Virus record (IMG/VR): IMGVR_UViG_3300030104_004245
Location: 1 to 64,000 of that record
Length of the DNA stretch: 64,000 bases
Origin: a virus
Reading direction: 5' to 3' (one strand)
The notes beneath the pieces were generated by a model. The model made no database searches. It saw only the letters and a list, made by a program, of their open reading frames with translations, and was not told the DNA's origin. This document shows, piece by piece, positions 50,144 through 63,334 of the stretch (position 1 is the first letter of the stretch; each line of letters opens with the position of its first letter). A program made the translations under genes and the position numbers.

Positions 50144-50617
50144 ATGACACCACAAGAGCGTAAAGCAAAAGTATTTGAATTAAGAAAAGAGCATCAAAGT
50201 TATTTTGAAAAATCAAATAACAAAAATGCATTATATATACCAAAGATGGCATACAGACCTCATGGTAAAGATGAGTTACATGTATCTTTCTTTCCAAGTG
50301 AATTACAAAAAGGTAGAGATATATTTACTGAATTTGTTAGTATTGATTATGACTCAGAAGATCCTAAAAGAACATTGTATTTATTTAAACACAATGCTCA
50401 TTGGGCTGAAGAATATGAAATAGTAACAAGTAGTTCAGGATTTGAAAGACATATTGTACCTGTATCTGAATTAAAAGTAATTAATGATGTAACTGATAGA
50501 AATATACCTATTAAAGAACCAGAATTAGTTAAAAATCCAGAAAAAAGAGAAATAGTAGATGTTCTTATTGGAATTGAAAGAGCATTATTAAGTATAAATC
50601 AAAAATTAAGTAAATAA
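50144..50617 (+). CDS. Unknown replication-region protein (157 aa)
   Basis: A mixed helical/beta protein (HGKDELHVSFFPSELQKGRD, VSIDYDSEDPKRTLYLFKHN) with a helical C-terminus. No family is recognised. Its stop overlaps the start of the Sak4-like ATPase gene. Confidence 0.6.
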   Translation: MTPQERKAKVFELRKEHQSYFEKSNNKNALYIPKMAYRPHGKDELHVSFFPSELQKGRDIFTEFVSIDYDSEDPKRTLYLFKHNAHWAEEYEIVTSSSGFERHIVPVSELKVINDVTDRNIPIKEPELVKNPEKREIVDVLIGIERALLSINQKLSK

Positions 50618-51300
50618 TGGCACAATCAGTATTAGTTATAGCTGACTCCGGGTCAGGTAAATCAACATCAATTAGGGACTTAGAACCTAAAGAGACATTT
50701 ATTATTAACATTGCTAATAAACCTCTACCATTTAAAGGATGGAAGAAAAATTATACAGTAATTGGTAAAGATAATTTAAAAGGAAACATGACAGCAGTGT
50801 CTAGTTCTGCAGGAATTATTAAAGCCATGATGCATGTTAATGATAAAATGCCTCATATAAAAAATCTAGTAATAGATGATTGGCAATATATGTCAAGTTT
50901 TGAATATTTTGACAGAGCCAATGAAAAAGGATATGATAAATTCACTCAAATTGCAGCTAATTTAGCACAAGTAGCTAAATTACCTAAAGATATGAGAGAT
51001 GATTTATATATATTCTTTTTGACACACTCTGAAGAATCAACAGATGTGAATGGACATAGAAAAGTTAAAGCAAAAACTATTGGTAAAATGATAGACAACA
51101 CTTTAACTTTAGAAGGTTTATTCTCTATAGTTTTATTTGGCAAAGTAGTCAAAGATGAAAATGATAAGTTAAGTTATGTATTTGAAACAGTTAATAATGG
51201 AGAAAATACTTGTAAATCACCAGACGGTATGTTTGATGATGCACGTATAGATAATTCATTAAAAGTTGTTAAAGATGCAATTATTGAATATGAAAATTAA
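50617..51300 (+). CDS. Sak4-like RecA-fold ATPase (AAA_24 type)
   Basis: Walker A DSGSGKST lies at residues 10-17 and a Walker B-like NLVIDDWQY near residues 84-91. The 227-residue length and motif spacing match Sak4/AAA_24 phage ATPases, which act as single-strand annealing recombinases stimulated by a phage SSB. The following gene is a fitting SSB-type partner, eight bases away. Confidence 0.75.
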   Translation: MAQSVLVIADSGSGKSTSIRDLEPKETFIINIANKPLPFKGWKKNYTVIGKDNLKGNMTAVSSSAGIIKAMMHVNDKMPHIKNLVIDDWQYMSSFEYFDRANEKGYDKFTQIAANLAQVAKLPKDMRDDLYIFFLTHSEESTDVNGHRKVKAKTIGKMIDNTLTLEGLFSIVLFGKVVKDENDKLSYVFETVNNGENTCKSPDGMFDDARIDNSLKVVKDAIIEYEN

Positions 51301-51307
51301 TTAAAAG

Positions 51308-52027
51308 ATGAACGAAACAAATTTAAAAAATAAAGTTATGTTAAATACTAAAGACATGTCTGCAGGAAGTGGACGAACTAAACCAGTTTTAGAACCAGGT
51401 AATCATGAAATAAAAATTAATTCTATTACCTTAGATCAAACACCGTATGATGCTGATTCATACAATATACATTTACACGTAGAAACACAACCAGTTGGTG
51501 GTGATTTTGAAGGTTTCTTTAGAGATTATAATAATCAATCATTAGGTAGATATGATGGTCAAGTTGGAAGAGTAAGAATAAGTCCTTTTCCATTTAAAGA
51601 CACTACATTACCAAGTGGTAGAGAAATTAGTAGAGATCAAGAGATTCTAAAACATATGATTACTCTTGCTGAAACATTAGATATGAGAGATGGATTAGAT
51701 TCTATTGAAGCAGAAACTATAGAAAAGTTTATGACTGAATGTAATACTTTATTTACAGGTGAAAAAGGCTCTAAGTTTATAAATATGTGTATAGGTGGCC
51801 GTGAATGGGAAAATAAAGAAGGTTATGTAAATAATGATCTTTTCTTACCACGTATATCTAAAGATGGTATTGCAATGGAAGCAGTAGATGCAGAAAACTC
51901 TAGATTACTTAAGTTTGATCGTGCTATGCATGTAAAAGCTTTAGTTAAGAAAAGTGTTAATCCAAATGGTGCTGAAGAAATACCATTTAAAGCAGACTCA
52001 GGATCAGGTTCTGATTTTGAGCTTTAA
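51308..52027 (+). CDS. Likely ssDNA-binding partner of Sak4-like ATPase
   Basis: The 239-residue protein is beta-rich at its N-terminus (GNHEIKINSITLDQ, SYNIHLHVETQPVGG) and ends in a flexible Ser/Gly-rich tail GSGSDFEL. Phage Sak4-type genes are often followed by an SSB. The C-terminal FEL resembles the end of the 43524-44114 protein. No OB motif can be read with certainty. Confidence 0.5.
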   Translation: MNETNLKNKVMLNTKDMSAGSGRTKPVLEPGNHEIKINSITLDQTPYDADSYNIHLHVETQPVGGDFEGFFRDYNNQSLGRYDGQVGRVRISPFPFKDTTLPSGREISRDQEILKHMITLAETLDMRDGLDSIEAETIEKFMTECNTLFTGEKGSKFINMCIGGREWENKEGYVNNDLFLPRISKDGIAMEAVDAENSRLLKFDRAMHVKALVKKSVNPNGAEEIPFKADSGSGSDFEL

Positions 52028-52098: not shown

Positions 52099-53052
52099 AT
52101 GATAAGTACAAAGAATCTCATATTAGATGGATCTAAAGTTCCAAGTACATGGGTGTTTGAGTTCTATCTGGATTTACCAGAAAGACTAAACGGACAGAAT
52201 GTACAGATTAAATCTGTATTTCATCCTACTGAAAGAACTCCAAGCATGTGGGTATTTGTGGACAAAGGTCAATATAAATTCAAAGATTTTTCAACCGGTA
52301 AAGGTGGTAATAAAATTGATTTAGTTAAAGAACTATTTAGTGTAGATTATTCTAAAGCAGTATTTAAAATAGGTCAAGATTATAATAAATTTATCACAGA
52401 AAAAGGTGAATATTCTCAATCTACTATAAAACCAGAAGCTAAATATAAAGTTGATAGTGTAAAAATAAGAAATTGGAATAAATATGATAAAAGATTTTGG
52501 TTACAGTTTAATATAGGTGAAGATATATTATATAAATATAATGTAAAACCACTTGAATTTTACCATATGGTTAAAGAAGATAACAAGATAACTATCCAAC
52601 AACCTTATATATATGGTTACTTTACTAAGAATGAAATTTATAAGATTTATCAACCAAGAAATAAGAAGTTTAAATTTATCAAAGTTAAACCTCATCTTCA
52701 AGGTATAGATCAATTAGAATATAAACAACCTTATCTTGTTATATGTTCTTCTTTGAAAGATGCAATGTGTTTAAAACAATTTGGATATAATATTGAAGTT
52801 ATTGCACCTGACTCAGAGAATACTATGATAAAACCATATATTATTGAAAATCTTAAGAAAAAGTATGAAAAAGTTGTAACTTTATTTGATAATGATGTTG
52901 CCGGACATGCAGCTGTAAATAAATATTTACTGCATTTTAACATAAAAGGCACATGGTTAGACAGTAGCAAAGACATTGCTGATCTTGTAAAAGAGAAAGG
53001 TTTTGATGCTGCTCATAAAGAAATTAAAGTTAAACTTAAAAATGTTTTATGA
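52099..53052 (+). CDS. Toprim-containing primase-like protein
   Basis: The 317-residue protein begins with a primase-type N-terminal part (HPTERTPSMWVF, KFKDFSTGKGGNKIDLVKEL) without zinc cysteines. It then has a Toprim domain with LVICSSLKDAM near residues 213-222 and VTLFDNDVAGH near 262-270. The second motif keeps DxD, but the usual first Glu of Toprim is Ser here. It probably primes replication with the DnaB-type helicase. The next gene starts inside its stop. Confidence 0.7.
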   Translation: MISTKNLILDGSKVPSTWVFEFYLDLPERLNGQNVQIKSVFHPTERTPSMWVFVDKGQYKFKDFSTGKGGNKIDLVKELFSVDYSKAVFKIGQDYNKFITEKGEYSQSTIKPEAKYKVDSVKIRNWNKYDKRFWLQFNIGEDILYKYNVKPLEFYHMVKEDNKITIQQPYIYGYFTKNEIYKIYQPRNKKFKFIKVKPHLQGIDQLEYKQPYLVICSSLKDAMCLKQFGYNIEVIAPDSENTMIKPYIIENLKKKYEKVVTLFDNDVAGHAAVNKYLLHFNIKGTWLDSSKDIADLVKEKGFDAAHKEIKVKLKNVL

Positions 53053-53456
53053 AGTGGTTTATACCAGGTAACGTTCCAAGTAGTAAAAATGGAAGAAGAT
53101 GGACAGGAAGATATTTTGTGTCCAGCAAAGCAACAACTAAATATAGAAAAGCAACAGCTAAGTACTATGATCAGTTTAGAAAAGGCTTTAGGAAGCAATT
53201 ATCTAAACTAGAATTACCGGTAAAAATATCATTTAAGTTCATCAGAGGATCTAAGCATAAGTTTGATTATATTAATCCTGCACAGACAGTGCAAGATGAT
53301 ATGGTTAAACATCATTGGATAGATGATGATAATTGTGAAAACATTCTACCTGTATTTGAACCTTATGAATATGATAAGGAGAATCCAGGCGTAGAAATTA
53401 AGTTAATTAAAAATGGAAACAAAACTAAAAAGAAACCTAGCAGTTCAAGTGATTAA
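53049..53456 (+). CDS. RusA-type Holliday junction resolvase
   Basis: The 135-residue protein starts with WFIPGNVPSSKNGRRWTG, followed by a Lys-rich helix, then DYINPAQTVQDDMVKHHW and IDDDNCENI with the Asp cluster of RusA (D73, D83-84, D92-94). RusA cuts four-way DNA junctions in phage recombination and packaging. It overlaps both neighbours. Confidence 0.75.
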   Translation: MKWFIPGNVPSSKNGRRWTGRYFVSSKATTKYRKATAKYYDQFRKGFRKQLSKLELPVKISFKFIRGSKHKFDYINPAQTVQDDMVKHHWIDDDNCENILPVFEPYEYDKENPGVEIKLIKNGNKTKKKPSSSSD

Positions 53457-53787
53457 AGATCACAATATATCAAAAATAGAAATAGATTATAGTGGTGGTG
53501 GTGATGACGGATGTTTAGATGCAGTTAGATATGAAGACATTAATGGTAATAATATTGATGTTAAATTAGATGGTGAAGTAGAAGCAGAATGGGATGACTT
53601 ACTATATAATATGTTAAGTGAAAACATAGAGTGGGATTGGATTAACAATGATGGAGGATACGGTCAAATGACAATTGATTGTACAAAAACTCCATGGAAA
53701 GTTAATATTAATCACACACAACGTGTTTGTGAAGATCATTATTATGATTGTGATTTTGATACTGAAGATAAACAACATTTCTTTTAA
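53413..53787 (+). CDS. DUF6878-like protein
   Basis: The 124-residue protein contains IDYSGGGDDGCLDAVRY and WDWINNDGGYGQMTIDCTK, the pattern I remember as DUF6878, with an acidic end. No function is known to me. It overlaps the RusA gene by 44 bases and abuts a DUF6915-like gene. Confidence 0.6.
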   Translation: METKLKRNLAVQVIKDHNISKIEIDYSGGGDDGCLDAVRYEDINGNNIDVKLDGEVEAEWDDLLYNMLSENIEWDWINNDGGYGQMTIDCTKTPWKVNINHTQRVCEDHYYDCDFDTEDKQHFF

Positions 53788-54134
53788 TGGCACACCCAAA
53801 TATTCATGCCAAATCTTCTGTAAAGAAGTTTGGTGGGTGTCCTGATGATTACATACATATACATAACTGGTTAGATGCAACAAAAAGTTGGGTGGGCAAT
53901 CACTTACACAGAATGTTTCGTCATCACAGTGAAGGTATATTTGAATGTGAAAGAAAATTTGGGCCAGTATTTAAAAATTCAGATGGTAAACCTGTTTATA
54001 CAAGATATGTTGCAGAGCAGCATGTAAGAGAGGATTGTAATAACTACATTCCCTCTGCAAAAGAATGGTTGGACAATATACACAAGGAAAAACTACCCTT
54101 GTGGATGATTAAAACAATGAAAATCAATGATTAG
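53787..54134 (+). CDS. DUF6915-like protein
   Basis: The 115-residue protein has HPNIHAKSSVKKFGG, DYIHIHNWLDATKSW, RMFRHHSEGIFECERKFGP and EQHVREDCNNYIPSAKEWLD, which match my memory of DUF6915. Many conserved His and Asp residues suggest a metal site. Paired here with DUF6878. Confidence 0.65.
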   Translation: MAHPNIHAKSSVKKFGGCPDDYIHIHNWLDATKSWVGNHLHRMFRHHSEGIFECERKFGPVFKNSDGKPVYTRYVAEQHVREDCNNYIPSAKEWLDNIHKEKLPLWMIKTMKIND

Positions 54135-54549
54135 TTTAAAAGAATATAAAAAATTAAGAGAACTCCTCCACGGATCTGATGAAGATTATAACGTAGGCTG
54201 TGAGAATATAAAAAACATGAAAGAAGTAACATCTATTACAAAAATGCTATTTGCTAAATCTTTAATGTTTGGTAAAAGGCAAGACTTTTGTGAAAAGTTT
54301 AAAATAGACTACCATAGTGTTAAAGAATGGAATGATATGTTTAAAGATCTTAATGATACTTTAGGTATAAGAATTGAACAAGAAATTATAGAGTTTGAAG
54401 TACACAAACAGATGCTTCCTGTCTTTACAAGTACTTGGAAGTTTATTAAAAATGTTAAAATTGAACTTGATTGGGATCATCAGAAACCAATTGAACCAGT
54501 TAGTAAAGAAGAACAACGTGAAATAGACAATATAGCAAATAATTTATAA
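54127..54549 (+). CDS. Unknown protein before the vWA/MoxR cassette (140 aa)
   Basis: A helical protein (KLRELLHGSDEDYNVGCENI; KMLFAKSLMFGKRQDFCEKF) with an acidic C-terminus. No motif is recognised. It is coupled at both ends (overlap of eight bases and shared base with the vWA gene), which ties it to the cassette. Confidence 0.6.
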   Translation: MISLKEYKKLRELLHGSDEDYNVGCENIKNMKEVTSITKMLFAKSLMFGKRQDFCEKFKIDYHSVKEWNDMFKDLNDTLGIRIEQEIIEFEVHKQMLPVFTSTWKFIKNVKIELDWDHQKPIEPVSKEEQREIDNIANNL

Positions 54550-55715
54550 TGGATATACAAGATAAACTAGCAAGAGCTTGTAAGTCACTAATATTAAGAG
54601 AGCCCTTTTATGGGCTCTTTTTAATTGGACTTAACAAGAAAATAAGAAAAGACGTCCCAACAGCGGGTGTCAGTAAAAATGGTATAGGTATACAATTATC
54701 TATTAACCCGGATTTCTTTATGGGAATACCAGATGAGCACCAGATAGGTCTACTTAAACATGAACTACTGCACGTTTCATTTGGGCATCTTATGATGAGA
54801 GACTCTTATCCTAACAAGAAGTTGTTTAATATTGCTGCAGATCTTGAGATCAATCAGTATATAAGTACAAGCATGCTTCCTGAAGGTGGATTAACTTTAG
54901 ATAGTTTTCCTGAGTTAAAATTACCAAAGAAAGCCGGTACTAAAAAGTATTATGATTTATTAGAACAAGAATGCAAGGATAATCCTTGTCAGTCACTAGA
55001 ATCTATACTTGATCAAATGGATGGTGACAGTCAATATGATCATAAAACATGGGAAGAGTTTGAAGATCTTACAGAAGCAGAGAAGAAGTTAGTTGAAAGA
55101 CAAATTGAGCATCAACTAAAAGAAACTGCAGAACAAACTGAAAAAAGAAGAGGAAATATTCCAGGTGAATTAGCTGAATTAATTAGTAAGCTAAGAACCG
55201 TGCTCCCTCCATCATTTGATTGGAAGGGCTATTTAAAAAGATTTGTGGGTAACTCCGTGTTTACTTTCACAAAGAAGTTGAGAAGAAAATTCAACAAAAG
55301 GTATACAGATAATCCAGGTCTAAAGATAAAACACAAAAATCATATATTGATTGGTGTTGATACTTCAGCATCTGTTAACACGAAGGAACTAGAACATTTT
55401 ATGAGTGAAATGGTTCATGTTCAGAAAACGGGACATCAAATAACTGTAGCACAATGTGACACAGGTATAAGTGATATATCCCCTTTTAATAGTAAACAGG
55501 ATTGGCAAATAAAAGGTAGAGGAGGTACAGACTTCCAGCCGGTTATTGACCACTTCAATGAGATGAGAGGTAGATATACTGCCCTTATATATTTAACAGA
55601 TGGTGAAGCACCAGCTCCAGAGAACTGCCCAAAGAACACATTATGGGTTCTTAGTGCAGATTCTAATTGGACTGATCATTTACCAGGAAAAACAATTCAA
55701 TTAAACACACATTAA
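54549..55715 (+). CDS. vWA-type putative metallopeptidase (DUF2201-like)
   Basis: Residues 71-75 are HELLH followed by H80, a zinc metallopeptidase-type motif. Near residues 265-275 ILIGVDTSASV begins a vWA domain with DTSAS, and GGTDFQP near 324 fits a later vWA motif. This layout matches the DUF2201 family often paired with MoxR ATPases. A protease or chaperone role is possible, with no known target. One base separates it from the MoxR-type gene. Confidence 0.8.
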   Translation: MDIQDKLARACKSLILREPFYGLFLIGLNKKIRKDVPTAGVSKNGIGIQLSINPDFFMGIPDEHQIGLLKHELLHVSFGHLMMRDSYPNKKLFNIAADLEINQYISTSMLPEGGLTLDSFPELKLPKKAGTKKYYDLLEQECKDNPCQSLESILDQMDGDSQYDHKTWEEFEDLTEAEKKLVERQIEHQLKETAEQTEKRRGNIPGELAELISKLRTVLPPSFDWKGYLKRFVGNSVFTFTKKLRRKFNKRYTDNPGLKIKHKNHILIGVDTSASVNTKELEHFMSEMVHVQKTGHQITVAQCDTGISDISPFNSKQDWQIKGRGGTDFQPVIDHFNEMRGRYTALIYLTDGEAPAPENCPKNTLWVLSADSNWTDHLPGKTIQLNTH

Positions 55716-55716
55716 A

Positions 55717-56979
55717 ATGGCACAAGTAAATTTAAATATAGATGAACTAAACGGTTTTGTAAACCATATAATAAAGAATAATAGATTTATTCAAGAACAA
55801 GGAAAAAATCCAGTTGCTGTAGAAGTAGTTGGTGAATCAGGTATAGGTAAAACTTCAGCTGTACTACAATTAGCTAAAGATAATGATTTAGATTTTGTTA
55901 AACTTAATTTAGCTCAGATAGAGGAATTAGGTGATTTAGTAGGTTTTCCTGTAAGACAATTTCAAATGTTTACTGAAAAACAAGTTACAAAGAAGATTGA
56001 TGATCTTAATTATACAGTAGCTCAAAGAGCTGCAGCATCTGCACAAGTTGCAAATGCTTCTATGACTAAGAAAGTTGGACAATGGGTTGATGAACTAGCA
56101 GTTGAAGAGTATCTTAGAAAAGGATGGAAGATGACCGGTAAGAATAGAATGTCTTATTGTGCACCAGAATGGATTGCAGACAAAAAGAAAGGAGGTATAC
56201 TTCTTCTTGATGACTGGAACCGTGCTGATGTTAGATTTATTCAAGCAGTAATGGAGCTGGTTGACAGACAACAGTATATTTCTTGGACATTACCTGAAGA
56301 TTGGCACATAATTTTAACTTCAAATCCAGATAACGGTGATTATATGGTTAACAGTGTGGATTCTGCACAAAAAACTAGATATATCACTGCTAATCTAAAG
56401 TTTGATGTAAACGTATGGGCAAGATGGGCTGAAGAGCAGCATATTGACACTCGTTGTATTAACTTCTTATTACTTCATCCTGAATTAGTTAACAAAGAAA
56501 CAAATGCAAGGGCTATAACAGCATTCTTCAATTCTATTTCAAGTTTTGAAAAATTTGAAGATGACCTGAGCATGATCCAAATGATTGGTGAAGGTTCAGT
56601 TGGGGACACGTTTGCTTCTATGTTTACTACGTTTATTAACAACAAGCTGGACAAGCTGGTCACGCCTAAAGATATGTTGACACATGAAAACCAAGATTGG
56701 GTTATTGGAGAACTAAATAGTGTTCTAGGAAAAGGTGACACATATAGAGCAGATATTGCATCTACTCTTGCAACAAGGTTGGCTAACTATTCAGTTGTTT
56801 ATGCTAATGAAAATACTGTAACACCAAAGATAAATGAAAGATTAATAGCATTATGCACAAAAGATGTATTTGCTAATGATCTAAAATATCTTATTGTTAG
56901 AACTATTTTCAACGGTAATAAAACTAAGTTTAACAAAATGATGATGAATCCAGAAATCATCAAGATGACAATGAAATAA
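55717..56979 (+). CDS. MoxR-family AAA+ ATPase
   Basis: Walker A GESGIGKT lies at residues 39-46, Walker B GGILLLDDWNRAD near 158-170 and sensor 1 ILTSNPDNGDYMV near 205. MoxR ATPases remodel proteins together with vWA-domain partners, and the partner gene is directly upstream. The downstream unknown genes may be substrates or additional subunits. Confidence 0.85.
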   Translation: MAQVNLNIDELNGFVNHIIKNNRFIQEQGKNPVAVEVVGESGIGKTSAVLQLAKDNDLDFVKLNLAQIEELGDLVGFPVRQFQMFTEKQVTKKIDDLNYTVAQRAAASAQVANASMTKKVGQWVDELAVEEYLRKGWKMTGKNRMSYCAPEWIADKKKGGILLLDDWNRADVRFIQAVMELVDRQQYISWTLPEDWHIILTSNPDNGDYMVNSVDSAQKTRYITANLKFDVNVWARWAEEQHIDTRCINFLLLHPELVNKETNARAITAFFNSISSFEKFEDDLSMIQMIGEGSVGDTFASMFTTFINNKLDKLVTPKDMLTHENQDWVIGELNSVLGKGDTYRADIASTLATRLANYSVVYANENTVTPKINERLIALCTKDVFANDLKYLIVRTIFNGNKTKFNKMMMNPEIIKMTMK

Positions 56980-56980
56980 G

Positions 56981-58039
56981 ATGAGTAAAGTTTATAATTG
57001 TACTTTGGGTGCTATTAAAGAGCAGTTAGAAGACTTTGGTTTAGATGGGCAGCCTGTATATCAGGTTGCTCTATCTAGACAAAGTTGGGATATGGGTCAA
57101 GCCATATTCTCTGATCTAAATAACACTTATAAAGTATTTCAGAGATATTTTAATGATGAGATAGATGTAGTAGATCTAACTCAATATAAAAAAGCTTTTG
57201 TGTTTCCAGGATGCCCGGTATCACTACCTAGGTTAAAGGAAGCATTAAGAGAGCACAAAATCACTGTAACAAATGATTTTAGTAAAGCTGATTTCTTTGT
57301 AACCCATAACGAATGGAGTAAATACCATAGTGATGGTGAGTCAATTAGAACTAACACCATGATGTTTAAAGCTATGAACTATGAAGCTATGGATATTAGT
57401 GCAAGTGAGAACTTAGCTCTTAAAAATGAAGAGCCAAATGTTGATCCTGCTATTCAAATTGTATTTGATGATAAGATGGCAGAGACATATAGTAGAAATA
57501 GTTTAGATTATGAAGCTGATTTGTATGAAAAATGGGTATTTACACCATTAGCTATACAAATTGCATATCGTATTAGACATGAACAAATACCGGTTATATA
57601 TGCTGAAACATGTTTAAATGAGTCAGCAAATAAAACAGTTCTTGATGAACAACTATTAGATGATGTTATTAGAATGATTCAACATGGTAGTGAAGAAGAA
57701 AGAGAAATGGTTAAAAAAATTGTACCAGCTATTGACTATAGAAAGAAAAAACATCTTCTATGGAAACTAGCAAAAGAGACAAGTGGTTATATGTATAGGT
57801 TTAATAGAGATAAAGATTTAAATTATTGGGCAGATAAAGCTCGGTTTCATACATATGGACGCCATAATGCTGAGGACATGATTAAACAGTTAGAGGAAGA
57901 AGAATGTCTTGATGCAGAATCATTTAGATATCTTGAACCTATTGTTCGTAAAGAGATTAGTATTAATAATAGAGAACTATATACCTTTAAAGTGCAAGTT
58001 AAAGAGGAGTATAGAAAATATTTAAAAATTAAAAAATGA
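56981..58039 (+). CDS. Unknown cassette protein A (352 aa), paralog of the next gene
   Basis: The 352-residue protein contains KKAFVFPGCPVSLPRLKEAL followed by VTNDFSKADFFVTHNEW (residues about 68-110). This segment parallels one in the next gene and looks like a small alpha/beta fold with a possible BRCT-like feel. The rest is helical (LLDDVIRMIQHGSEEEREMV). It lies one base after the MoxR-type gene and overlaps the next by four. Confidence 0.6.
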   Translation: MSKVYNCTLGAIKEQLEDFGLDGQPVYQVALSRQSWDMGQAIFSDLNNTYKVFQRYFNDEIDVVDLTQYKKAFVFPGCPVSLPRLKEALREHKITVTNDFSKADFFVTHNEWSKYHSDGESIRTNTMMFKAMNYEAMDISASENLALKNEEPNVDPAIQIVFDDKMAETYSRNSLDYEADLYEKWVFTPLAIQIAYRIRHEQIPVIYAETCLNESANKTVLDEQLLDDVIRMIQHGSEEEREMVKKIVPAIDYRKKKHLLWKLAKETSGYMYRFNRDKDLNYWADKARFHTYGRHNAEDMIKQLEEEECLDAESFRYLEPIVRKEISINNRELYTFKVQVKEEYRKYLKIKK

Positions 58040-59304
58040 CAGATTTAAAACAAATATGGTTAATTAGTATTGACCCAAGTAAAGTAGATAAAGTAAGTAA
58101 CGCTTTGGTAATGCAAAATGGTAGTGTTAAAGTAAAACAATTGGGTCATTATATAGAATCAGGTGATAATAGTGGTAGGTATAGAAATAAAACTAATAAC
58201 ACAAAGATTAAAGAAATAATGGATGATATTCCTACTATTACATCTGATGATCTTAAAAATGCCACGGCACTATTTAGATTTCCTAGACTTAGTTTATCAA
58301 GAGATAAGGTAAAAATACTACAAGAAAAGTTTGATCTTAAGTTGAAAAGAGATTTTCACCAGGCAGACTATGGTATTGTATCTGAAAAGTATTTTGATGG
58401 ATTATTTGTTACTAGATGGTTAGCATCAGCAGATCCTGCAGATGTACTTTCTTGGGCACAAGTTTATCAAGATTGTTTTGAAGAGGATCTTTTTGATGAA
58501 ATTGTAAATGAATTAAATAAGATACCTGCAGATGCTCATGTTGTATATGAATCAGAATGGTTTAGTTCATATTACCACGAGGGTGCTAGTAATCTTGATA
58601 GATATTCTAAGATGTCAGAAAAAGTAAGAAATGTAGGAGGTAGTAGTAAGTATCATTATTACATTGAATCATTAGATCAATGGAATGATATACAAGCTAA
58701 TTTACCTAAACTTGTTTGGGATAGTAATATTAATGAACTTGCTACAGAAGACTCTGAAGTATTAACAGAAGAAATGTATATACAACTTAAAACTATGCTT
58801 GGTTGGGAAAAGACCGAAAGTGGTTGTGGTTGGCAAGGTACTAGAGACAAAGAGAATATGAATCTAGCTTTGAGCATTATTGCTAATTGTAATATTCAAA
58901 AGTCTCATACATATTTAGCACTATTATTTTCATTCTTAAGTGACTCTATGAAAGATTCATCTGTTTGGAATACTGTTAACTTTAAGTCCGTAAGGAAGAA
59001 GTTTGAAAAGTATATACAAATGAATGGTTGGAACTGGTGTCATAATTATAATTATTTAATTGAATATTTAGTTAAAGATAATGCATTAACTAAAATTGCT
59101 TGGAAAGAAGTTGCTCAAAAAATGTATGATGATGTATTGTCATCTCAAATGGGTGTTGATAGTAAAAATGTATTTAGTATCAGTCCTGAGAGTATCCAAT
59201 TAAAACCGGAACTTAAAAAAAGAGTAATGCCAAGTCAAGAAGATCTACAATATATGGAAGATCTTGTTGATATGCACACTGAATCACATGATTATGCAAG
59301 ATAA
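58036..59304 (+). CDS. Unknown cassette protein B (422 aa), paralog of the previous gene
   Basis: Residues about 75-115 read ATALFRFPRLSLSRDKVKIL then KRDFHQADYGIVSEKYF, matching the pattern of protein A (FxFPxxxLxRxK, then DF.xAD). The C-terminal half is unrelated and helical (LVDMHTESHDYA end). It overlaps the exonuclease frame downstream. The two genes likely arose by duplication within the cassette. Confidence 0.6.
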   Translation: MTDLKQIWLISIDPSKVDKVSNALVMQNGSVKVKQLGHYIESGDNSGRYRNKTNNTKIKEIMDDIPTITSDDLKNATALFRFPRLSLSRDKVKILQEKFDLKLKRDFHQADYGIVSEKYFDGLFVTRWLASADPADVLSWAQVYQDCFEEDLFDEIVNELNKIPADAHVVYESEWFSSYYHEGASNLDRYSKMSEKVRNVGGSSKYHYYIESLDQWNDIQANLPKLVWDSNINELATEDSEVLTEEMYIQLKTMLGWEKTESGCGWQGTRDKENMNLALSIIANCNIQKSHTYLALLFSFLSDSMKDSSVWNTVNFKSVRKKFEKYIQMNGWNWCHNYNYLIEYLVKDNALTKIAWKEVAQKMYDDVLSSQMGVDSKNVFSISPESIQLKPELKKRVMPSQEDLQYMEDLVDMHTESHDYAR

Positions 59305-60286
59305 AATTAAAGAAGGCTTGTTTTACAAGGAAGAGTTTAACTTCAGTTACTCTTCCTTAAACAGGTTATTATTTTCACCAAAACTTTTTTATAAAGATTA
59401 TATCCTTAAAGAAAGGGAAACCAAAATGGAAAAACATCTAATAGAAGGTAGGTTAATACACCTGCTACTATTAGAACCAAATAGGTTTGAAGAAGAATTT
59501 GTTATGTCACCATTAAAAATGCCAACAGATTCAGTCAAAAAAGTATTAAGAAATGTCAGCAGTAAAATTGTTGACCCAAATAATTATATGAAGTTAAAAG
59601 ATTTAGATGTTCAGATACTAGAAGCTTTAAAAGAAGAGAACTTGTATCAATCATTTAAGGAAGACCAAAAAAGATTAGATAAAATAATAACAGAAGAGAG
59701 TGAAGCGTATTTTAAATTCTTACAAACAACAGGTAAAACTATAATTGATGCAGATACATTTGCACGTTGTATGGATCGTGTTGTTATAATCCGGGCTAAT
59801 AATGAAGTAAATAACTTATTGATGGAAGAAGGCACTGATTGGGATTTAGATCATATTCAAGTATACAATGAAAAGAAATTAGAGTGTAAATTAAATAACT
59901 ATAAATTTGGATTAAAAGGTATAATAGATAAATATATAATAGATGATGAAGAAAAGACAATAACCATTGTAGATCTTAAAACAACAGCAAAACCATTAGA
60001 AAATTTTGCTGAAACAGTAGATTTTTACAATTATTGGTTACAAGCGGCTGTATATTCACTACTTGTCATGAAAAATGTTGATGAAAATCAACAAGATTAC
60101 AAAATTATTTTTAAATTTGTTGTGATAGACAAGTATGACCAGGTCTACGTCTTTCCTGTATCGGAAGAAACCTTACTAAAATGGACAAACGGATTAAGAG
60201 AAGCATTAACTGAAGCAAATTATCATTACAGTGAAAGAAAATATGAACTGCCATATGTATTTGCTAACGGTAATGTAACCTTATGA
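59294..60286 (+). CDS. RecE/RecB-type PD-(D/E)XK exonuclease
   Basis: A longer frame begins at 59264, but the ATG at 59294 is preferred since it leaves a small overlap with the preceding stop. The N-terminus has SYSSLNRLLFSPKLFYKDYI and EGRLIHLLLLEP, typical of DUF3799/RecE-type nucleases, and the active site LKGIIDKYIID then ITIVDLKTT lies around residues 205-230. With the Sak4-like annealase it would form a recombination pair. Confidence 0.75.
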   Translation: MQDKIKEGLFYKEEFNFSYSSLNRLLFSPKLFYKDYILKERETKMEKHLIEGRLIHLLLLEPNRFEEEFVMSPLKMPTDSVKKVLRNVSSKIVDPNNYMKLKDLDVQILEALKEENLYQSFKEDQKRLDKIITEESEAYFKFLQTTGKTIIDADTFARCMDRVVIIRANNEVNNLLMEEGTDWDLDHIQVYNEKKLECKLNNYKFGLKGIIDKYIIDDEEKTITIVDLKTTAKPLENFAETVDFYNYWLQAAVYSLLVMKNVDENQQDYKIIFKFVVIDKYDQVYVFPVSEETLLKWTNGLREALTEANYHYSERKYELPYVFANGNVTL

Positions 60287-61380: not shown

Positions 61381-61417
61381 AAGGGAGCTGGTTTGTGTGA
61401 CAGCTCCCTTTTTTTTT
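61381..61417 (+). terminator. Intrinsic terminator between gene and DNA polymerase
   Basis: AAGGGAGCTG and CAGCTCCCTT form a perfect 10-base stem with a 10-base loop followed by nine Ts. It stands 13 bases before the polymerase ATG at 61430, so an attenuator role is possible. Confidence 0.9.
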
Positions 61418-61429
61418 AAATTAAATTAT

Positions 61430-63334
61430 ATGAATCACTGGGTAATGGATTATGAAACATTATCTAATTGTTTTGTGGGCGTATTTACACATTACAAAAC
61501 TGAAGAGACTAAGATCTTTTCAATATGTAAACTGCAGAATGATTTTGATAAGTTCATAGAATTCTTAAAAGAAAACATACGGAATAAAGAGTGGCATATA
61601 TCCTACAACGGATTGGCATTTGATGCACAGATCACTCATTATATAATAAAAGAATATGGGAATTTAAAACTCATGGATGGAGAAGAAATTGCTCAAGAGA
61701 TTTATGGTTGTGCACAAAAATGCATAGAAAAAAGTAATGCTCATGAATTTCAAGAGTTTCCTGAGTGGCATATGTCTATCAAACAAATAGATGTATTTAA
61801 ATTAAACCATTGGGATAACATGGCTAAGAGATCTAGTCTTAAATGGATAGAATATACTATGGACTGGGATAATATTTTAGATATGCCTATACATCATGAA
61901 ACATTAATAGAAACTCAAGGTCAATTAGACCTTGTTATTGAATACTGTATTAATGATGTAGAAGCAACTAAAGAGATCTTTAATAGATGTAAACCTTTAA
62001 TAGCATTAAGAAAGAACTTAACTGAAAAATATAATATTAACTTGTTTAGTGCATCTGAACCAAGAATAAGTAAAGAGATCTTTGCTTACTATCTTAGTAA
62101 AGAGCTAGACATGCCAAAATATGAAGTTAAAAAATTAAGAACTTTTAGAAATGTAATTAAAGTAAATGATCTTATACTAGACTATATTAAATTTGAGACA
62201 CCTGAATTTAAAACTTTATTAGAAAAGTTTAGGACAGTAGAAGTAAATCCTAATTACACTAAAGGAGGGTTTAAATCTTCTGTAAAATATAAAGGTGTAA
62301 AAACTGATTTCGGATTAGGTGGTGCCCATGGTGCTACTAAAGCTGGAGTGTATGAGTCTGATAATGAGAAAGTTATAATGTCTTCAGATGTTACTAGCTT
62401 TTATCCTAATTTAGCTATTGTTAATCAATATGCACCGGCTCATATACCTAAAGAAAAGTTTTGTGAATTATATAAATGGTTCTTTGATGAAAGAAAGAAA
62501 ATACCAAAGAGTGATCCAATGAACTATGTATATAAAATTATCTTAAACTCAACTTACGGGTTAAGTAATGATAAGAACTCTTTTCTATATGATCCACAGT
62601 TTACTATGTTTATTACAGTTAATGGTCAACTTACATTAATGATGTTGTATGAGATGATTATGACCAGAATACCAGATGCTGTTGCTTTAATGCAAAATAC
62701 TGATGGTGTTGAAACCATCATACCAAAAGAATATGTTAATACATATATGGAGGTATGTAAAGAATGGGAACAAATAACCGGTCTTAATCTTGAACATGAT
62801 CAATATAGTAAACTAGTATTAGCTGATGTCAATAATTATATAGCTGTTGACACTAATGGTAAAGCTAAATGTAAAGGTAGATTTGAATATGACGGGTTAG
62901 CTCTTCATAAAAACAAGTCTAAACTGATCATTCCAAAAGCATTGTATGCGTACTTTGTTGATGGAACTTTACCAGAATATACATTAAAACATAATAGAAA
63001 TATTCTTGATTATTGTATAGGAGCTAAATCTAAAGGTGCATGGAGGCAACATGCTATATATGTTAAAGATAAAATTGCACAAAAAGATGAACTTCAAAAA
63101 ATTAATAGATATTATATTTCAAATAAAGGTTGTAAAATTGTTAAGATAAATAAGAATGATCAAAGAGAAATACAGTTAGAATCTGGGCAATGGGTTCAAA
63201 CTGTAATGAATAAGATAGAAGATAAAAAATGGTCAGACTATGACATTAACGAGAAATATTATCTTAATGCAATTGAGAAAGAAATAAATAACATAATTGG
63301 TGTAAAAAACAACCAATTGTTATTGTTTCAATAA
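61430..63334 (+). CDS. Family B DNA polymerase with 3'-5' exonuclease
   Basis: A GTG at 61397 lies inside the terminator stem, so the ATG at 61430 is preferred, giving 634 residues. Exonuclease motifs: Exo I MDYET (D7, E9), Exo II YNGLAFD (N60, D65) and Exo III YCIND (Y172, D176). Polymerase motifs: A SDVTSFYPN (D320), B KIILNSTYG (K369, N373) and C QNTDGV (D425). Motif C has Asn where YxDTD normally has the first Asp. The enzyme should replicate the phage genome. The length is short for family B. Confidence 0.9.
   Translation: MNHWVMDYETLSNCFVGVFTHYKTEETKIFSICKLQNDFDKFIEFLKENIRNKEWHISYNGLAFDAQITHYIIKEYGNLKLMDGEEIAQEIYGCAQKCIEKSNAHEFQEFPEWHMSIKQIDVFKLNHWDNMAKRSSLKWIEYTMDWDNILDMPIHHETLIETQGQLDLVIEYCINDVEATKEIFNRCKPLIALRKNLTEKYNINLFSASEPRISKEIFAYYLSKELDMPKYEVKKLRTFRNVIKVNDLILDYIKFETPEFKTLLEKFRTVEVNPNYTKGGFKSSVKYKGVKTDFGLGGAHGATKAGVYESDNEKVIMSSDVTSFYPNLAIVNQYAPAHIPKEKFCELYKWFFDERKKIPKSDPMNYVYKIILNSTYGLSNDKNSFLYDPQFTMFITVNGQLTLMMLYEMIMTRIPDAVALMQNTDGVETIIPKEYVNTYMEVCKEWEQITGLNLEHDQYSKLVLADVNNYIAVDTNGKAKCKGRFEYDGLALHKNKSKLIIPKALYAYFVDGTLPEYTLKHNRNILDYCIGAKSKGAWRQHAIYVKDKIAQKDELQKINRYYISNKGCKIVKINKNDQREIQLESGQWVQTVMNKIEDKKWSDYDINEKYYLNAIEKEINNIIGVKNNQLLLFQ

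Follow-up and report, generated by a model that had tools for sequence, protein, structure and literature searches.

Ternary systems built from a MoxR-type ATPase, a vWA protein and a third protein that defines the subsystem are an established design (Kaur et al. 2020, PMC7159879). In the known systems, the MIDAS of the vWA protein captures a peptide, and ATP is used to reshape the client (PMC7159879). Among phages, gp24 and gp25 are core genes of the N4-like group that are expressed in the middle period (PMC4193335), and a MoxR/vWA-metallopeptidase pair, for which a role in virion assembly was proposed, has been described for the group 2.2 jumbo phages (Iyer et al. 2021, PMC7824862). An experimentally assigned function of the phage pair was not found in the literature searched. 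Here, we analyze such a pair in a marine, crAssphage-related virus, where it belongs to a block of five open reading frames (ORFs) at positions 54127-59304 of the window, the first 64,000 nucleotides of the IMG/VR record IMGVR_UViG_3300030104_004245 (121,758 bases). In order, the block encodes a small protein (g140), a vWA/zincin protein, a MoxR-type AAA+ ATPase, and two paralogs that we call ParA and ParB. The original prediction, made from the window alone, presented the MoxR-vWA pair as a bacterial module. The pair is, however, not unusual in phages (N4, AR9, jumbo phages). The pair itself is thus already known; the obligate pair of probably BRCT-like paralogs, with single-strand DNA-binding protein (SSB)-type tips in a subset, appears to be undescribed in the literature searched.

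The five ORFs are packed end to end as predicted, with junctions of -1, +1, +1 and -4 bases (Table 1). Searches of IMG/VR with MoxR, ParA and a divergent ParA, together with one scan of genome contigs, yielded 145 distinct loci. The full order g140-vWA-MoxR-ParA-ParB is present in 126 of them, including three that also have a weak ParA match in the primase. All others end at a contig edge, except for two (L111/L113) that represent a single phage truly without g140. Since contig ends and the loss of g140 account for every incomplete locus, the core of four genes stays unbroken throughout the clade: an intact locus that lacks the vWA-MoxR-ParA-ParB group, or has it scattered, does not occur among the 145. 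Related phages with the pair but without the paralogs, or with the genes in other contexts, would have spoken against the conserved functional unit that had been suggested; the co-occurrence of the four main genes in every intact locus speaks for it. The ParA start lies -4 to +2 bases from the MoxR stop in all 71 loci measured, and in nine clade members searched as whole records, the ParB profile matches once and only once per record.

The proteins of the block evolve at very different rates. Mean identity to the window, calculated over 34 divergent loci, is 81% for MoxR, 68% for vWA, 66% for the polymerase, 65% for RusA, 59% for the primase, 51% for the exonuclease, 39% for ParA, 31% for g140 and 29% for ParB, which makes MoxR the best conserved protein of the locus, and ParA, ParB and g140 the least conserved ones. 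The ratios of nonsynonymous to synonymous substitution rates (dN/dS) between close relatives follow the same trend for the block, with 0.06 for MoxR, 0.13 for vWA, 0.24 for ParA, 0.36 for ParB and 0.40 for g140. In view of these ratios, and of the gene order kept in every intact locus, the block is real and strongly conserved, and not a chance cluster. A conserved motor with fast-changing but constrained partners fits the idea that the latter are adaptors or clients. In one record of 245,646 bases (IMGVR_UViG_3300030098_004828, loci L092/L094), the block occurs twice, at a distance of about 120 kb. This record is also about twice as long as the genomes of the clade, and could therefore be either a doubled genome or an assembly in which two phages were concatenated.

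Outside the clade, the pair is found in other company. It is also present in AR9/PBS1, cyanophage S-TIM5, Moorella phage MTATph1, Alteromonas phage AD45 (AD45-P1) and others. The N4 proteins gp24/gp25 (Schitoviridae; PHROG 1297 and PHROG 1314) are homologous to the pair of the window (vWA profile E 7e-21, MoxR profile E 5e-5), and are likewise a MoxR-type ATPase and a zincin-vWA protein that are core and expressed in the replication period (PMC4193335). In N4, however, MoxR precedes vWA, a dCTP deaminase gene comes next, and the whole-record profile search finds no ParA or ParB. The group 2.2 jumbo-phage pair has the same domain make-up, including the fused N-terminal metallopeptidase, but a third component was not described for it (PMC7824862). 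The ParB profile found zero copies in the whole records of AR9, MTATph1, AD45-P1 and N4. Homologs of ParA, ParB and g140 were also sought, by single sequence against profile, in the surroundings of the pair in eight further phages (349 ORFs); the best probability was 12%, and none of the eight has a recognisable ParA or ParB. Because the pair occurs without them outside the clade, ParA and ParB are a lineage-specific third component and not a general part of the machine.

A similar arrangement is that of AR9/PBS1 (g028-g036), where the pair (g028/g029) is followed, as in the window, by tandem paralogs of unknown function. Five genes of one family (g030, g031, g034, g035 and g036; L084:11579-17840) lie directly behind the AR9 pair, and the family occurs at 4-8 places per AR9/PBS1-type genome according to tblastn. 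These paralogs were rejected as homologs of ParA and ParB, since they form an unrelated family (profile E 0.02 or worse). We also dismissed the notion that the 669-residue gene behind the AD45 pair is a ParA-ParB fusion, as it has no internal repeat and no match. In AD45 and MTATph1, other unknown proteins follow the pair. In AR9, an early promoter is annotated 57 bases ahead of the ATPase gene. With respect to the MoxR-vWA ternary conflict systems (PMC7159879), the block resembles them in combining the ATPase and the vWA co-chaperone with an obligate, lineage-specific third gene. It differs from them in that they are bacterial and that the vWA protein of the window is fused to a zincin domain. 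Searches of Pfam, NCBIfam, PHROG and PADLOC found none of the partners VMAP, iSTAND, FtsH or beta-propeller as the third gene.

The pair is real, and judged by its conserved motifs it looks catalytically intact. In the vWA protein, both domains of the DUF2201 zincin-vWA family exceed their curated cut-offs (PF13203, residues 5-239, E 4.9e-19, 69.4 versus 23.2 bits; PF09967, residues 267-376, E 3.6e-17, 63.1 versus 26.4 bits), and the protein matches PHROG 1314 with E 1.7e-69. The HELLH site noticed in the original prediction is genuine and corresponds to residues 71-75. The zinc site (H71, E72, H75, H80, D98) and the MIDAS (D271-x-S-x-S, T327, D351) are invariant in all 22 aligned sequences, seven of which come from other phage groups (N4, AR9, S-TIM5, Moorella, Thermus, Alteromonas and Pseudomonas phages). 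The PHROG label "HNH endonuclease" for this gene is apparently wrong, as Pfam shows no HNH domain. The name, which stems from PHROG 1314, is widespread for zincin-vWA proteins in public phage records, including N4 gp25.

The ATPase matches PHROG 1297 (E 2e-34) and has the MoxR AAA+ motifs, namely Walker A and B, sensor 1 and the arginines; Walker A (GESGIGKT), the acidic position of Walker B, N203, R221 and R265 are kept in 15 sequences. Midasin, a remodeller of the helix-2-insert clade to which the ATPase probably also belongs, is the best match of its profile among solved structures (E 9e-19), followed by Clp and McrB types (McrB 1.6e-4). The Pfam models remain below their cut-offs (AAA_3, 16.7 versus 27 bits; AAA_5, 16.5 versus 22 bits). 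We therefore use "MoxR-type" loosely, with PHROG 1297, the match to midasin and the presence of a vWA partner as its basis.

Both genes of the pair have been invaded by group I introns in relatives. In one case (L158:4007-6271; also L163 and L166), an intron of about 1.1 kb interrupts the vWA gene within the HELLH codons. It encodes a LAGLIDADG endonuclease and scores 40.3 bits against RF00028 (E 1.6e-8), under the gathering score of 50; the likely junction GAGCT|TAAC...AAATG|CTTACAC restores HELLH. In another (L110:32-2076), the MoxR gene is interrupted at codon 181/182 by an intron that scores 58.5 bits against RF00028 and contains an ORF for a GIY-YIG endonuclease. The location of two independent homing introns in conserved codons suggests that both genes matter to the phage. 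Of the first 80 loci, 12 have an extra ORF of 128-136 residues that separates vWA from MoxR (e.g. L032:5873-6283); its product (MGRYYxGDIEGKFxFG...) matches PHROG 33624 with E 6e-12.

The two last proteins of the block were rightly called related, though the kinship is ancient. BLASTP of ParA against ParB of the window finds one match of 44 residues (E 0.022). When profiles were made separately, with members chosen by gene position alone (71 ParA, 66 ParB), they aligned collinearly across 279 columns (probability 90%, E 1.9e-6, compared with E >= 0.06 for unrelated pairs), and according to this comparison ParA and ParB are ancient paralogs. In hhalign, g140 and ParB match along a helical stretch of about 44 columns (probability 77%, E 2e-5), so that they may share this element, and common ancestry may extend to as many as three of the five genes, with the g140 link being tentative. 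ParA, ParB and g140 belong to no known family in Pfam, NCBIfam or PHROG, PADLOC and PDB sequences give nothing usable for ParA and ParB, and a tblastn search with ParB has no match in 50,697 phage records. At the sequence level, the paralogs are thus specific to this phage group, as had been surmised. Three apparent leads were discarded: a YjeJ match of ParB (E 0.007) that is sub-threshold and limited to 2 of 44 members, the weak similarity of ParA to the C-terminus of the primase seen in three loci (16-20 bits), which we judged insufficient, and a defence-system membership of the block, for which PADLOC matches are at noise level.

Structure prediction and profile searches, which had been recommended for the paralogs, gave BRCT-like signals in both, but none that is significant. 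The AlphaFold2 (AF2) models have pLDDT values of 86.8 (ParA) and 87.8 (ParB), and their PDB matches are all non-significant. For ParB, chains of the Sir4 H-BRCT domain occupy ranks 1-7, and the PARP1 BRCT domain (2le0) is matched with a probability of 0.87 and 1.9 A across 50 columns. The matches of ParA include BRCT domains of PARP1, XRCC1, MDC1, MCPH1 and Sir4. BRCT chains thus recur in both fold searches, as weak matches with E >= 0.15. The order of elements in the ParB model, b-a-b-b-a-b-a, fits that of BRCT domains (b1-a1-b2-b3-a2-b4-a3), and for a profile of the segment made from sequence only, the top PDB match is PARP1 BRCT (E 0.055). ParA (approximately residues 68-120) and ParB (approximately residues 75-145) therefore probably contain a BRCT-like domain in the models; as the fold and sequence matches are weak and a Pfam BRCT match is lacking, we hold this label to be probable only. 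The BFVD matches of the ParA model (E 4e-6 to 3e-5) are proteins from crAss-like virus ctYsL76 and from an uncultured Caudovirales phage, as well as two proteins from a single podovirus, ctz6O13. They suggest that the paired arrangement is wider than sequence searches show.

Bacteria recruit DNA-repair enzymes through the short C-terminal tail of SSB. The tip of this tail reads DDDIPF in E. coli (PMC5872125). Among 128 distinct ParBs, 24 (from 18 of the 68 clusters formed at 60% identity) end with LPF exactly at the stop codon, and 21 (15 of 68 clusters) with [DEN][DEN]LPF, as in GFDDLPF, SHNDLPF, PLDNLPF and INEDLPF. An acidic-[L/I]PF C-terminus is thus found in 21-24 of the 128 proteins, and not in the ParB of the window. 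LPF ends are absent from all 2447 other complete ORFs of the same loci (Fisher p 6e-33, kinship not corrected for). Like the bacterial SSB tip, these ends combine acidic and hydrophobic residues at the exact C-terminus and follow a variable linker, which is short and unalignable in the ParBs. Unlike bacterial SSB, ParB is without an OB-fold SSB domain according to Pfam. The SSB-like tip is a trait of a subset, because the ParB of the window ends with HTESHDYAR. The ParB tip may also have a clamp-binding-like role.

The location of the block in the replication arm was correctly recognized. Structural genes occupy the left 40 kb of the window on the minus strand, and from about 41 kb onwards the plus strand encodes a DnaB-like helicase, Sak4, the probable SSB, the primase, RusA, the block, the exonuclease and the polymerase. 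From primase to exonuclease, most genes overlap or touch. We do not claim a promoter, because a scan found no more sites than in shuffled sequences. The tail of the phage SSB-like protein is acidic, SDFEL in the window and DDFDL in most of 126 homologs. The DUF6915 gene and the 124-residue gene preceding it are found in only about half of the loci. The listed TTG start of the exonuclease is less likely than the ATG at 59294. The C-terminus of the polymerase (63275-63334), NNQLLLFQ, resembles the sliding-clamp binding motif (QLxLF).

Table 1. Genes of the block and of the surrounding replication arm, in window coordinates.
Feature	Position	Strand	Evidence
Sak4-like single-strand annealing protein	50617..51300	+	PHROG 2872, E 5e-63
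Probable phage single-strand DNA-binding protein	51308..52027	+	PHROG 378, E 0.005
DNA primase (zinc ribbon and Toprim), upstream, same gene run	52099..53052	+	
RusA-like Holliday junction resolvase, same gene run	53049..53456	+	
DUF6915 protein, directly before the block	53787-54134		PF21866, E 5e-38
g140, small protein, 140 residues, first gene of the block	54127..54549	+	ORF
vWA co-chaperone with N-terminal zincin-like metallopeptidase domain, 388 residues	54549..55715	+	PF13203, PF09967
MoxR-type AAA+ ATPase, 420 residues	55717..56979	+	PHROG 1297, midasin profile match
ParA, first paralog, 352 residues, helical C-terminal half	56981..58039	+	AF2 model
ParB, second paralog, 422 residues, helical C-terminal half	58036..59304	+	AF2 model
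PD-(D/E)XK exonuclease, next gene after ParB	59264..60286	+	PF12705, E 4.8e-13; PHROG 412, E 3.6e-22
DNA polymerase, family-B-like	61397..63334	+	PHROG 1252, E 5e-145

The virus has a terminase and a portal of the crAss type, with portal and TerL 22-34% identical to those of crAss-like phages; the nearest relative of the portal is in Leptolyngbya phage Lbo-JY46. Neither ParB nor PF13203 was found in six of six named crAss-like or allied records, searched with a ParB profile that recovers nine of nine clade members. Three relatives were binned with genomes of a Campylobacteraceae and of a Pseudomonadales bacterium, which is weak evidence for the host.

What the block does can be proposed only tentatively. 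With slightly less than even confidence, we suggest that it encodes a MoxR-vWA ternary machine that acts on replication or recombination complexes, with ParA and ParB as adaptors or clients. The MIDAS of the vWA/zincin protein would grip a client peptide, the MoxR ring would draw on ATP to pull at the client or change its shape, and cutting by the zincin domain might follow. ParA and ParB, perhaps together with g140, would associate with the pair as a dedicated third component of BRCT-like, helix-rich scaffolds, and would either be clients or bring them. ParB could dock on enzymes that are normally bound to SSB, and the pair could then load, remodel or remove the replication or recombination complex. 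This complex is the likeliest worksite, given that the genes for primase, resolvase, exonuclease and polymerase are read together with the block, and that the SSB tip occurs in many ParBs. A more specific version, in which the paired BRCT-like adaptors, one of them with SSB-tip mimicry, steer the MoxR ring and the zincin-vWA protein to single-strand DNA hubs, so that host SSB-partner enzymes are recruited, swapped or destroyed at phage forks, appears unlikely, although not remotely so. Several observations weigh against the proposed ternary machine. The ParB of the window and most other ParBs lack the LPF tip, and the phage has an SSB-like protein of its own with a different tail. Pfam BRCT models match none of 24 segments, and every single BRCT match is under significance (E 0.055 to 1.2). 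Finally, ParA and ParB could be co-transcribed with the pair, yet act alone.

The original prediction left undecided whether the block is a chaperone or maturation machine or a remodeller of host targets. A counter-defence role, with fast-evolving ParA and ParB as adaptors that deliver host proteins, such as repair nucleases that partner SSB, to MoxR-vWA, which would unfold or cut them, seems rather unlikely to us. In its favour, ParA, ParB and g140 diverge far beyond the motor and the polymerase and have a higher dN/dS than MoxR, a DDLPF tip would attach to partners of the host SSB (RecQ, RecO or Exo I, for example), and the AR9 pair, too, is followed by tandem paralogs, though of an unrelated family. 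However, the conserved presence of the block resembles a core function more than a patchy counter-defence gene, defence-family matches do not rise above noise, and positive selection is not seen (dN/dS < 1).

Virion assembly or maturation, with MoxR-vWA folding and the zincin domain trimming structural proteins, and with ParA and ParB as assembly factors, is likewise rather unlikely. It was proposed for the group 2.2 jumbo-phage pair, with the pair that serves tail assembly in Acidianus two-tailed virus as the analogue (PMC7824862), and the N4-like roseophage RPP1 encodes four virion proteins near gp24/25 (PMC4193335). In our virus, the block lies on the replication strand and within replication genes, distant from and opposite to the structural arm, and SSB-type tails are ill-suited to a structural role. 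Timing elsewhere, with the early promoter before the AR9 pair and the middle-period expression in N4, also favours a replication role. Operon position, the probable BRCT-like domain and the SSB-type tails of many ParBs thus seem to point to replication or recombination rather than to virion maturation. That the pair keeps a general phage role and ParA and ParB are unrelated, merely co-transcribed replication accessory proteins is less likely still: the pair functions in other phages without them, and fold-level relatives of ParA and ParB occur in gut crAss-like viruses and podoviruses, but no intact locus of the 145 separates them, and ParA adjoins MoxR wherever this was measured.

The phage MoxR-vWA pair is core in N4-like phages and recurrent in many others. 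To this common machine, the present clade adds an obligate, adjacent third component with hints to the worksite, namely a BRCT-like fold, an SSB-type tip and a replication operon, and thereby narrows the question of what the machine does to a few tests of binding. If the reading of the SSB tip is correct, ParB would be a clear case of a phage protein that borrows the host's main recruitment signal for DNA repair.

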